A stretch of 64,000 bases of DNA, taken from assembly GCF_024298905.1 (NCBI RefSeq), contig NZ_CP101154.1:1302001-1366000 (forward strand), given 5' to 3'. The notes below the pieces were generated by a model that saw only the letters and a program-made list of their open reading frames with translations, searched no databases and was not told the origin of the DNA. Positions 3,833-41,565 of this stretch are shown here, one piece after another. The position numbers were made by a program, and so were the translations under genes. The stretch's first letter is position 1. Every line of letters begins with the position of its first letter. This DNA is from Natronomonas marina. Its GTDB lineage: Archaea > Halobacteriota > Halobacteria > Halobacteriales > Haloarculaceae.

Positions 3833-5494
3833 GTGACCCTCCGCTCCTATCGGCGGTTCGTCGTCGTCGCCTACCAGTTCCTGCCGCTACTCCTGGCGTA
3901 CGCCCGTGACCGCAACCGGTTTCTCCTGTTCGGCGCGAGCCGACAGGTGTCGGCCGAAACCCGCCGGAAGCGGGCACGCTCGCTCCTGGACTCGCTCCTG
4001 ACGCTGGGGCCGACGTTCATCAAGCTGGGCCAGCTGCTGTCGACGCGTCCCGACGTGTTGCCCCCCGAGTACGTCGAGGAGTTCGAGTCCCTGCAGGACG
4101 ACGTCCCGCCAGCCGAGTGGGCCGACGCCAGGGAGATACTCGAGGCCGACATCGGCCGCGTTGAGGAGACGTTCGACGACTTCACGACCGAGGCGATAAG
4201 CGGCGCCAGCCTCGGGCAGGTGTACGTCGCCACCTACGAGGGTCGTCGGGTCGCCGTGAAGATCCGCCGCCCCGGCATCGAGCGACTCGTCGAGGCCGAC
4301 CTCCGGGTCATTCGGTGGTCGCTGCCGATCCTGATGCGGTTCGTCGACCGGGCGCGGTCGTTCTCGCTGGAGACGCTGGCCGACGAGTTCGAGAAGACCA
4401 TCCGCGAGGAGATGGACTACGAGCGCGAGCGCCGGATGCTCGAGGAGATCGGAACCAACCTCGCCGACAACGACCGGGTACGGGTCCCGGCGGCGGTGCC
4501 CGAACTCTCCAGTAAGCGCGTCCTGACGATGGAGTACGTCGGCGGGACGAAGATCTCCCAGATCGACGACCTGGACGCGCTGGGTGTCGACCGGACCGCG
4601 CTGGCGACGACGCTGCAGCGCGTCTACCTTCAGATGATCGTCGAGGACGGCGTCTTCCACGCCGACCCCCACCCCGGCAACCTCGCCGTCAAGGACGACG
4701 GCACCGTCGTCTTCTACGACTTCGGGATGTCCGGCCGGGTCGACCCGCTCATCCAGGAGAAGATCGTCGAGTTCTACATGGCCGTCGCCCGCCAGGACAC
4801 CGACGCCATCCTCGACACGCTCATCGAGATGGGGACGCTCAGCCCCGAGGCCGACCGCGAGGTGATGTCGAACGTGATGGAACTGGCCATCGCCGACGCC
4901 CGCGGCGAGAACATCGAACAGTACCGCGTCCAGCAGATCATCCAGCAGGTCGAGGACACCATCTACGAGTTCCCGCTCCGCTTGCCGCCCAACCTCGCGC
5001 TGGTGCTGCGGGTCGCCACCGTCGTCGAGGGCGTCTGCGTGACGCTGGACCCCGACTTCGACTTCATCGCGGTCGCGACCGACTACCTCGGCGAGGAGGG
5101 GTTCATCGAGGATAGCGCCCGCGACTTCGTAGCGGAGCGGGCCACGGAGTTCCAGGAGTTCGGACAGTCGATGGTCCGGGTACCGCCGAAGCTCGAGCGG
5201 ACCCTCGACAGCGTCGACCGCGGCGACGTCACCGTCCAGTTCGAGGTCTCCGACGACGAACGAGCACTGGATCGGCTGGCCAAACGGCTCATCCTCGGCG
5301 GCCTGCTGTCGGCGACGATCATGGCCTCGGCAGTGCTGTACGCCTTCTCGACGCTCGTGGCCGCGCTCGTGCCCGCCGCCGTCGCCGTCCCGGTCGCCGT
5401 CATGCTGTGGCGGTCGTTCCGCCAAAAGAAGGGCCTCCGGGCGACCCCGCAGTTCACCCGCCAGCAGATGCGACAGCGCCGCGGCGACGAGTAG
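3833..5494 (+). CDS. ABC1/AarF/UbiB-family protein kinase-like ATPase
   Basis: 553 residues from a GTG. The family signature KxGQ appears as FIKLGQLLSTRPDVLPPEY near residue 60. Next come the Ala-rich nucleotide loop ISGASLGQVYVATYEGRRVAVKIRRPG (about 120-145), the catalytic HADPHPGN near 276 and DFGMSGR near 295. Two hydrophobic helices at about 485-525 anchor the C-terminus in the membrane. In bacteria and mitochondria UbiB/Coq8 proteins support isoprenoid quinone biosynthesis as ATPases; here menaquinone is a plausible link but is inferred. It follows hsp20 by 12 bases. Confidence 0.92.
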   Translation: MTLRSYRRFVVVAYQFLPLLLAYARDRNRFLLFGASRQVSAETRRKRARSLLDSLLTLGPTFIKLGQLLSTRPDVLPPEYVEEFESLQDDVPPAEWADAREILEADIGRVEETFDDFTTEAISGASLGQVYVATYEGRRVAVKIRRPGIERLVEADLRVIRWSLPILMRFVDRARSFSLETLADEFEKTIREEMDYERERRMLEEIGTNLADNDRVRVPAAVPELSSKRVLTMEYVGGTKISQIDDLDALGVDRTALATTLQRVYLQMIVEDGVFHADPHPGNLAVKDDGTVVFYDFGMSGRVDPLIQEKIVEFYMAVARQDTDAILDTLIEMGTLSPEADREVMSNVMELAIADARGENIEQYRVQQIIQQVEDTIYEFPLRLPPNLALVLRVATVVEGVCVTLDPDFDFIAVATDYLGEEGFIEDSARDFVAERATEFQEFGQSMVRVPPKLERTLDSVDRGDVTVQFEVSDDERALDRLAKRLILGGLLSATIMASAVLYAFSTLVAALVPAAVAVPVAVMLWRSFRQKKGLRATPQFTRQQMRQRRGDE

Positions 5495-39886: not shown

Positions 39887-40543
39887 ATGGACCACTCCCG
39901 GCGGTCGTTGCTCGCCTGCACGGCGGGGGCGGCGGCCACCGCAGTCGCCGGCTGTCTCGGCGGCGACGACACCCAGTCGTTCGACGCCCACCCCGCGACG
40001 ACGGGCGTCGAGAGCCAGCCGACGCTCGGTTCTCTCGACGCGACGGCGGCCATCGTCGCCTTCGAGGACCCTTCCTGTAGTTCCTGTCGGCGCTTCGAAA
40101 CCGAGACCTTCCCCTCCATCGAGTCCGAACTGGTCGAGCCGGGCGACGCGGCCTTCGTCTACCGCACGCTGGACATCACGTACCCCTGGAGCGAACCCGC
40201 CAGCCAGGTCATGGCCTCGACGTACGACGCCGACACAGACGCCTTCTGGGGGCTGAAGGACTACTACTACGAACGACAGCCGGAGTTCGACTCCGACAAC
40301 GTCTTCGAACTGTCGGAGTCGTACCTCGAGGGGGTGTCGTCGGTCGACGCCGCGTCGGTCGTCGAGGCGGCCCGCGACGGCGAACACGACGCCCTCATTC
40401 AGCGCAACCGAAATGCCGCCGAGGCCGCCGGCGTCGGTTCGACGCCGCAGTTTTTCCTGTTCCGGGACGACGAGTTCCGGACGCAGGTGTCGGGTCCGCA
40501 GGACTTCGAGGTGTTCGCCAGCGCGCTGGGGTTCGAGCCATGA
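39887..40543 (+). CDS. Tat-exported DsbA-like thioredoxin-fold lipoprotein
   Basis: 218 residues. The N-terminus has a Tat motif and lipobox (HSRRSLLACTAGAAATAVAG followed by CLGG), so the mature protein is tethered outside the membrane. The redox motif is CSSC in FEDPSCSSCRRFETETF near 63. A cis-Pro loop is STPQFFLFRDD near 185, and the DsbA-type helical insert lies between. It should catalyse thiol oxidation or isomerisation of exported proteins. It overlaps the next membrane-protein gene by ATGA, and a TATA-like cgatatgg lies at 39857-39864. Confidence 0.9.
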   Translation: MDHSRRSLLACTAGAAATAVAGCLGGDDTQSFDAHPATTGVESQPTLGSLDATAAIVAFEDPSCSSCRRFETETFPSIESELVEPGDAAFVYRTLDITYPWSEPASQVMASTYDADTDAFWGLKDYYYERQPEFDSDNVFELSESYLEGVSSVDAASVVEAARDGEHDALIQRNRNAAEAAGVGSTPQFFLFRDDEFRTQVSGPQDFEVFASALGFEP

Positions 40544-41139
40544 ACGTTCGGTCGCACCTCCCGACGCTGCCGAGTTCGACCGACGACTGGCGGCTGATGG
40601 GCCGGACGGTCAGGCTGGTGCTGTCGGTTCCGGCCTACGCCGTCGTCGCGGTGCTGGCGGCGGCGGTCGGGCTCTCGCTTTTCGTCTTCTCGTTGAACCT
40701 CCCGCTCGTCGAGTTGGCGGTCACCGGCACCCTGCCGACGAGCGCGCGGGTGACGATACTGACGCGGCTCTACCCGTTCGTCGGGTCCGCCTTCAGTCCC
40801 GTCCAGGGGGGACTCCTCGTGGCCGTCGCGGCGCTCTTCGGCGTCGACGTGGCGATGGTGAGTTACCACCTCCGGAAGCACGGCCTCTCGCTGTCGGGCG
40901 GGGGTGGCAGCGCCGTCGGGGCTGTCCTGGGCGCGCTGGGTGCCGGCTGTGCGGCCTGCGGGTCGGCACTCCTGGTCGGTATTCTGTCGCTCTTCGGCGT
41001 CTCGACGTCGGTGCTCTTCCTCCCGCTGGACGGTCTGGAGTTCGCGCTCTTGGCGCTGGTCGCACTCCTGCTGTCCATCCACTGGGTGGCCGACGGGATG
41101 CGCGGCGGGCAGGTGGCAGGCTGTCCGGTCGACCCCTGA
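40540..41139 (+). CDS. Membrane protein with an intramembrane Cys pair, partner of the DsbA-like lipoprotein
   Basis: 199 residues with about five helices. Helix 4 opens with GALGAGCAACGSALLVGILS, a CxxC pair near the membrane face, and a further Cys is in the last residues (VAGCPVDP). There is no VKOR or CcdA/DsbD signature that I recognise. Coupled translation with the thioredoxin-fold lipoprotein suggests that it passes electrons to or from it, as DsbB/CcdA do in bacteria; this role is inference. Confidence 0.75.
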   Translation: MNVRSHLPTLPSSTDDWRLMGRTVRLVLSVPAYAVVAVLAAAVGLSLFVFSLNLPLVELAVTGTLPTSARVTILTRLYPFVGSAFSPVQGGLLVAVAALFGVDVAMVSYHLRKHGLSLSGGGGSAVGAVLGALGAGCAACGSALLVGILSLFGVSTSVLFLPLDGLEFALLALVALLLSIHWVADGMRGGQVAGCPVDP

Positions 41140-41178: not shown

Positions 41179-41565
41179 GTGGCCGACGAGGAGACGCCCG
41201 CGTTCGCCATCCGGCAGCGGCCGACCCGGCGGTACCCGCGCCGCGGCGGCGTCGAGTACGAGGGCGAGACGGTGTTCGTCCTCGCCCCCGACGCCGATCC
41301 CGACGAGGCAGCGCTCGTGGACCTGCTGGAGTCGGTGCTCGCGGCGGAGGTCTACCGCTACGGCGACTGGTTCGATTTGCCGATGCCGCTGTTCGTCGTC
41401 CACGACGACGACACCGGCGACACGTTCCGCGTGGCCGTCCGCGACGGCGCTATCGAGTTCCACGTCCTTCCGGCGACCGAACCGCCGGGATTGCGTCGTC
41501 TCTACGAGCGACTGTGTGACGCCACCGACTACGGGTGGTCGGTGGGGTACCGGGACGGCGAGTGA
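41179..41565 (+). CDS. Conserved cytoplasmic hypothetical protein
   Basis: 128 residues from a GTG. An alpha/beta layout is visible: YEGETVFVLAPDADPDEAAL, then a helix (LVDLLESVLAAEVYR), YGDWFDLPMPLFVVHDDDTG and a C-terminal helix (RRLYERLCDATDY). No catalytic signature. The start is supported by a TATA-like element. It lies between the redox membrane pair and a DUF4383 gene on the opposite strand, with no clear partner. Confidence 0.7.
   Translation: MADEETPAFAIRQRPTRRYPRRGGVEYEGETVFVLAPDADPDEAALVDLLESVLAAEVYRYGDWFDLPMPLFVVHDDDTGDTFRVAVRDGAIEFHVLPATEPPGLRRLYERLCDATDYGWSVGYRDGE

Follow-up and report, generated by a model that had tools for sequence, protein, structure and literature searches.

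A conserved haloarchaeal gene pair encoding a DsbA-like lipoprotein and a cysteine-pair membrane protein, its candidate redox partner

The DNA considered here, called the window in what follows, is a stretch of 64,000 nucleotides from the genome of the haloarchaeon Natronomonas marina (contig NZ_CP101154.1, positions 1,302,001 to 1,366,000). Two overlapping genes of its forward strand, named A and B, encode a CxxC lipoprotein and a small membrane protein with conserved cysteines, and show the following features (conservation refers to alignments of 42 rows for each protein):

39887..40543, + strand: gene A, 218 residues, a predicted Tat-type CxxC lipoprotein of BdbD/DsbA fold (PF13462, AlphaFold2 model and profile)
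39899..39904, + strand: twin arginine of A (R5-R6), at least 90% conserved
39953..39955, + strand: lipobox cysteine of A (C23), at least 90% conserved
40076..40087, + strand: active-site CxxC of A (C64-SS-C67), C64 invariant and C67 at least 90% conserved
40442..40447, + strand: Thr-Pro of A (T186-P187), before the last strands, at least 90% conserved
40540..40543, + strand: ATGA overlap of the stop of A with the start of B, the same four-nucleotide overlap being found in 16 of the 42 related loci
40540..41139, + strand: gene B, a membrane protein of 199 residues with four predicted transmembrane helices and three conserved cysteines
40948..40959, + strand: CxxC of B (C137-AA-C140, within GCAACG), in the predicted third transmembrane helix, invariant
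41122..41124, + strand: C-terminal cysteine of B (C195), at least 90% conserved, predicted on the cytosolic side in the fourth transmembrane helix

A first-pass annotation of this DNA had described A as a Tat-exported CxxC lipoprotein of the thioredoxin fold that overlaps B by ATGA, and had pointed to the GCAACG pair and a terminal cysteine in B; all of these are found again here. It had also mentioned a ten-cysteine precursor elsewhere in the window, which our ORF scan did not recover: four ORFs of the window combine at least seven cysteines with haloarchaeal codon bias and none is an obvious exported ten-cysteine precursor, in a scan whose codon-bias filter may overlook genes of unusual composition. 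Directly after B, an ORF of 128 residues and of unknown family (41179-41565, + strand) has a homologue on only four of the 42 related loci (L002, L006, L009 and L016) and was therefore placed outside the conserved pair.

In Pfam, A matches Thioredoxin_4 (PF13462) with an E-value of 4.1e-20 and 73 bits, above the cut-off of 23.2. The AlphaFold2 model of A (pLDDT 91.9) has BdbD (3eu4, E 6.9e-12) as its top PDB match, followed by other DsbA proteins and ScsC, and profile comparison gives BdbD of Bacillus subtilis as the best solved relative (7.7e-28), again with a resemblance to ScsC. By analogy, T186-P187 may occupy the position of the cis-proline of the thioredoxin fold. With a Thioredoxin_4/DsbA domain, a CxxC and a Thr/Val-Pro all present, A is by sequence and predicted fold a BdbD-type DsbA. 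The nearest NCBIfam model, NF041057 (Rcas_1661 family thioredoxin-like (seleno)lipoprotein), matches A at 8.4e-15 and 55 bits and the A protein of a bacterial MAG more strongly (126 bits), all four A proteins checked scoring below its cut-off of 190 bits. The window's genome contains a second match to a DsbA domain (PF01323, 4.6e-32), in an open frame of 575 codons at about 3.45 Mb (L101:2144-3868, + strand, on G000:C1).

Gene B has no match in Pfam or NCBIfam, and none of its 42 relatives has a convincing family match. Hydropathy, charge bias and the AlphaFold2 model give four transmembrane helices and an N-terminal amphipathic helix, instead of the five helices counted in the first-pass annotation, and both ends of the protein are predicted inside from hydropathy and charge. 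In the window's subfamily of B (sub1, or B1), the mean number of K+R is 6.1 at the N-terminus, 1.4 in loop 2 and 1.6 at the C-terminus versus 0.02 in loop 3, with 1.5 over the 34 residues of loop 1; in a second subfamily (sub2, or B2, see below) the corresponding values are 4.7, 2.7 and 2.6 versus 0.0 in loop 3. The CxxC, earlier placed at a helix end, is predicted in mid-membrane within the third helix, where the model is poor, and the last cysteine where the fourth ends on the cytosolic side. No conserved cysteine pair was found in the predicted outer loops of B, and no quinone site was identified in the protein. The model is moderate overall (mean pLDDT 76.5, pTM 0.70) and weak at about residues 111-160, the CxxC included. 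With this model, weak at the CxxC, Foldseek returned no solved-structure match at E<=0.001, and the best VIA Z was 5.9, within the noise for helical models; the B profile gave a single match among solved structures (E 0.12).

Searching one-genome-per-species contigs with six B peptides as queries (GAGCAACG among them), we collected 42 loci, nearly all labelled haloarchaeal, with a few from MAGs of uncultured archaea and one on a contig labelled bacterium (L042). A homologue of A was present on the same stretch in all 42, just upstream on the same strand in 40 and divergent in two (L024 and L033). The 42-row alignment of B leaves out L040 for its broken B frame, as well as an additional, incomplete B on L026; that of A excludes L004, L007 and L013, where A is broken or badly started. 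Among the damaged copies of A, that of L004 is split, that of L013 is without the CxxC part and that of L036 has lost the second cysteine, an intact B adjoining an A without CxxC in L036. Residues C137, C140, P31, Y33, N53, P162 and several glycines are invariant in B, and the cysteines of both proteins are conserved well above chance, a conservation that is partly built into this set because the queries were B peptides.

A profile scan of 242 haloarchaeal genomes, less biased than the peptide search, detected sub1 B in 60 genomes at more than 100 bits. Of the 61 matches over this threshold, 60, from 59 genomes, were fetched as independent loci, the window's own locus being left out. Conservation of the cysteine pair and the company of the lipoprotein were the two points on which the first-pass annotation had staked its reading beforehand. 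The motif GCAxCG was present in all 60 loci, followed in each by a downstream cysteine (53 residues on in 57, 45 or 52 in the others). The opposite of a membrane gene living mostly apart from the lipoprotein was also found, with A immediately upstream in 57 of the 60 (no A at L162, L163 and L166). All 57 adjacent A proteins keep the CxxC, the two residues between the cysteines being PT in 24, PR in nine and many others in the rest. When sub1-type A was counted at 195 bits or more over the 242 genomes, A was found in 60 and B in 60, both together in 58, A only in two (G018 and G023), B only in two and neither in 180. The data support A and B as a pair that is conserved and inherited together. 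An intact B without A occurs at L162 (G165, with no A on the locus) and L163, and the G165 copy is full-length on reading. The idea that B decays whenever A is lost was dropped: only the B copies of L166 and of L204, a sub2 locus, are damaged, and that of G165 is full-length.

Sampling 392 genomes of the phylum for B gave 30 haloarchaeal genomes with a match and two weak matches elsewhere, and a scan of viral contigs gave 14 pattern matches, none of which was confirmed. On the bacterium-labelled MAG contig, a clear A-B pair (L042:4264-5549), with a B that is 31% identical, could be a real transfer or mis-binning. In a genome of the same phylum outside the haloarchaea (L099:3096-3365 and 4323-4853, both - strand), a B-like protein (SACPIC..., with a terminal cysteine) is encoded some 1 kb away from a small ORF judged thioredoxin-like by eye (CYLC, TTPT).

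Twenty loci with weaker matches were also fetched, of which one encodes a CCGP protein (see below) and 19 form the second subfamily, with the signature GCAxCGAGVLG...LPFDGNLLR...GDPRTC. A profile of the 19 exceeded 100 bits in 56 of the 242 genomes, and the sub1 and sub2 profiles align with 98.6% probability along the greater part of their length; seven genomes carry both subfamilies. At 58 sub2 loci, A is a same-strand upstream neighbour in 32, a divergent gene no more than 600 bases off in 19 and an opposite-strand gene at a distance of about 2.1 kb in four; three loci have no A. The A proteins beside sub1 (58) and beside sub2 (56) fall into two clades with none of the 114 misplaced, and the residues between the active-site cysteines are nearly fixed as PF in those of sub2 (51/55). 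GCAxCG is kept in 57 of the 58 sub2 loci, with a cysteine 43 residues downstream of the motif in 57/57. The exception, L204 (G130:C91), is a damaged sub2 B with no A nearby and both motif cysteines changed (GRASRG). Within 5 kb of the 58 loci we noted a thioredoxin-like gene in 19, a gene of a GCPxCN membrane family in 18 and a DUF302-like gene in 15, these names being taken from annotated relatives and by eye; on annotated plasmids, multicopper oxidase, copper-binding and trxA genes are found near sub2. Sub1 loci have no recurrent thioredoxin or metal neighbour within 5 kb, where only local synteny is apparent.

Comparison with known membrane partners bears out the first-pass statement that B does not look like DsbB, VKOR or CcdA. 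No match to PF02600 (DsbB) was obtained at E<=1 for the 42 B members, and none to PF07884 (VKOR) or PF02683 (CcdA/DsbD) for the 42 sub1 or 19 sub2 members. Using hhalign, B scored 0.4% against haloarchaeal DsbB, with eight of 40 shuffles equally good, and 0.2% against haloarchaeal CcdA, with 23-25 of 40 shuffles equally good. With no Pfam match and with DsbB and CcdA profiles at shuffle level, we rejected the view that B is a diverged member of the DsbB, VKOR or CcdA families. Direct membership of the MerT family was rejected as well: PF02411 (MerT) has no Pfam match in B or its 42 relatives, and a score of 48% against a mixed MerT/CCGP alignment fell to chance level when sub1 and sub2 were compared with bacterial MerT alone. 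The GCPxCN family reached 83.7% with sub2 and 49.6% with sub1 (0/40 shuffles as good) and 58.4% with bacterial MerT (0/30), and a haloarchaeal CCGP family reached 91.2% with sub1 (0/30), in alignments that are shallow, with 2 to 11 sequences on one side. The links of sub2 to GCPxCN, of sub1 to CCGP and of GCPxCN to MerT score above shuffled and reversed controls, and the CCGP protein matches PF02411 at 5.7e-4, under the cut-off. These sequence comparisons place B in a loose group of small cysteine-pair membrane proteins, with MerT connected to the group indirectly, via intermediates only.

Members of the GCPxCN family (L100:5096-5686, - strand; L211:6013-6507; L219, L220 and L221) have a cysteine pair in a helix and often a terminal CxxC. 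In haloarchaea their genes, annotated as hypothetical, adjoin sub2 B, and plasmids of Rhodococcus and Streptomyces carry them within copper-type islands; the family occurs on actinobacterial and other plasmids, and two of three bacterial plasmids have heavy-metal P-type ATPase and DUF305 genes near it. The CCGP family (L066:3982-4581, + strand; L218:4938-5555) has the four-helix plan of B with a CCGP motif, and its gene on L218 adjoins a DUF3179 gene.

DsbB, VKOR and DsbD_TM (CcdA/DsbD) all go unmatched in the window's genome (99.98% complete); they occur respectively in 103, 40 and 55 (39 above the curated cut-off) of the 242 genomes. In the co-occurrence statistics, where kinship was handled by a genus count only, sub1 and DsbB are found together in 34 of 60 genomes, above expectation (odds ratio 2.1, p 0.016; not significant at genus level, odds ratio 2.6, p 0.09). 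DsbB accompanies sub2 in 10 of 56, below expectation (odds ratio 0.22, p 1.3e-5; not significant at genus level, p 0.10). VKOR is present in one of the 60 genomes with sub1 versus 39 of the other 182 (odds ratio 0.06, p 9e-5), an avoidance also seen at genus level (3/27 versus 21/46 genera, p 0.004). Fourteen of the 60 sub1 genomes have neither DsbB, VKOR, DsbD_TM nor sub2. Over the whole set, 49 of the 242 genomes lack all of B1, B2, DsbB, VKOR and DsbD_TM, so that an oxidase of such kinds is not obligatory. With DsbB present in 34 of the 60 B1 genomes, the proposal that B1 is a simple DsbB replacement is unsupported. Open frames of about 450-540 codons, with room for a second, fused domain, hold many of the haloarchaeal VKOR matches.

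We consider it probable that B is the redox partner of A, in one direction or the other. The pairing itself (57 of 60 adjacent, both present in 58 genomes) argues for this, as do two B subfamilies with matching A clades, although seven genomes carry both, and we count on the same side L204, where no A is nearby and both motif cysteines are lost. The orphan copies (B in G165, A in G018 and G023) and L036 argue against it. Our main reading, to which we give a probability of roughly 0.4, is that A and B form a two-component thiol-redox module in the envelope of haloarchaea, in which B is the dedicated membrane partner, its likeliest task being to re-oxidise A. A would be secreted by its Tat-type signal, anchored as a lipoprotein and act on thiols through its CxxC. 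The CxxC in the third helix of B may undergo direct disulfide exchange with A, an exchange that the remaining cysteine, where the fourth helix meets the cytosol, could resolve or relay. B would then presumably re-oxidise A, with electrons passing to the membrane or the cytosol, the role played elsewhere by DsbB/BdbC or VKOR being filled by an unrelated protein.

The oxidising direction is slightly favoured, by the BdbD kinship of A, the bdbDC-like operon and the lack of any other partner in 14 genomes, and the avoidance of VKOR by sub1 was counted for an oxidising module. DsbB and VKOR have a cysteine pair in an outer loop; unlike them, B has none, which argues against an oxidising module, and the DsbB present in 34 of the 60 B1 genomes argues against a plain DsbB substitute. 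Of the oxidation module proposed in the first-pass annotation, the conserved, co-inherited pair stands; its oxidising direction is clouded by this co-occurrence with DsbB, by the predicted cytosolic position of the terminal cysteine and by the thioredoxin-like genes near sub2. The same three observations fit a flow of electrons the other way, from cytosolic thioredoxin through the C-terminal cysteine and membrane CxxC of B to A, which would then reduce or isomerise envelope disulfides, B being an unrelated counterpart of DsbD/CcdA/ScsB. Such a reductive conduit gains from the positive charge of the N-terminus, loop 2 and the C-terminus with almost none in loop 3, from the thioredoxin-like gene at 19 of 58 sub2 loci and the annotated trxA on plasmids, and from the likeness of A to ScsC, since ScsB, DsbD and CcdA hold ScsC-like proteins reduced according to an excerpt of PMC5403849. 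We nevertheless hold it to be unlikely, if to be taken seriously, as A is nearest to BdbD, whose name and family are those of an oxidase, sub1 loci have no recurrent thioredoxin neighbour and profile similarity to haloarchaeal CcdA is absent.

A metal-thiolate relay, with B as a MerT-like importer or exporter of thiophilic metals (Cu, Hg) and A as a metal-binding or thiol-reducing partner outside, draws on the profile chain from sub2 to GCPxCN (83.7%), from sub1 to CCGP (91.2%) and from GCPxCN to MerT (58.4%), all above controls, on the sub-threshold match of the CCGP protein to MerT and on the copper genes near sub2 and GCPxCN genes on plasmids. It seems improbable for the pair as a whole: sub1 has no recurrent metal neighbour, the direct comparison of either subfamily with bacterial MerT is at chance, and A has a full thioredoxin-type active site, not a metal-binding HMA domain. 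It is chiefly for sub2 and GCPxCN that the MerT chain and the copper islands keep a metal-handling role in play. That A and B are neighbours by inheritance only, serving separate processes from one operon, would agree with the few orphan copies (B at L162/G165 and L163, A in G018 and G023); it is very improbable in view of their co-presence (58/60 both ways), of the conservation of the cysteines themselves and of a pair kept in two independently arranged subfamilies, upstream or divergent.

No description of the A-B pair in haloarchaea was found in the literature (open-access PMC text), and in all seven plasmid records that match B by tblastn only a 'hypothetical protein' is annotated under the match. 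The new element is that the probable membrane partner of a DsbA-like protein falls outside the partner families known so far. The redox state of DsbA-like proteins has to be set by a partner in the membrane; in the genome of the window and in 13 further haloarchaeal genomes, none of the known partners was detected, B being the sole candidate found. B can be put to the test as a possible new type of membrane thiol relay, and the presence of the pair in tractable genera such as Haloarcula opens envelope thiol chemistry to simple experiment. The profile links suggest that several 'hypothetical' cysteine-pair membrane proteins of metal and redox islands are one superfamily. More tentatively, and on balance doubtfully, B might represent a third class of membrane enzyme re-oxidising DsbA-like proteins, derived from the thiol-relay stock of MerT. 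If so, mercury transport, the copper-island family and disulfide exchange would be variants of one design, a cysteine pair inside a helix plus a cytosolic cysteine.

Set beside known systems, the pair resembles BdbD-BdbC (DsbA-DsbB) in its arrangement, A having the BdbD fold and active-site plan and being followed in one operon by the membrane gene. DsbB has two cysteine pairs, one of them in the second outer loop. B differs in having no PF02600 match, three conserved cysteines rather than two pairs, none of them in predicted outer loops, and a similarity to the DsbB profile at shuffle level. An excerpt of PMC8945050 presents bdbD-bdbC of B. subtilis as an operon of a DsbA with its DsbB. With CcdA, DsbD and ScsB the system shares a small membrane protein, intramembrane cysteines and an adjacent extracytoplasmic partner of the thioredoxin fold. 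CcdA has one cysteine in each of two helices, whereas B has a CxxC in a single helix plus a terminal cysteine, and no PF02683 match. MerT (PF02411), linked to B through the GCPxCN and haloarchaeal CCGP families, has like B a cysteine pair in a helix, one more helix and then a further cysteine, which in MerT is cytosolic. B differs by two extra N-terminal helices and by the lack of direct profile support, and the partner of MerT is the HMA-type MerP, whereas that of B is the thioredoxin-fold A.
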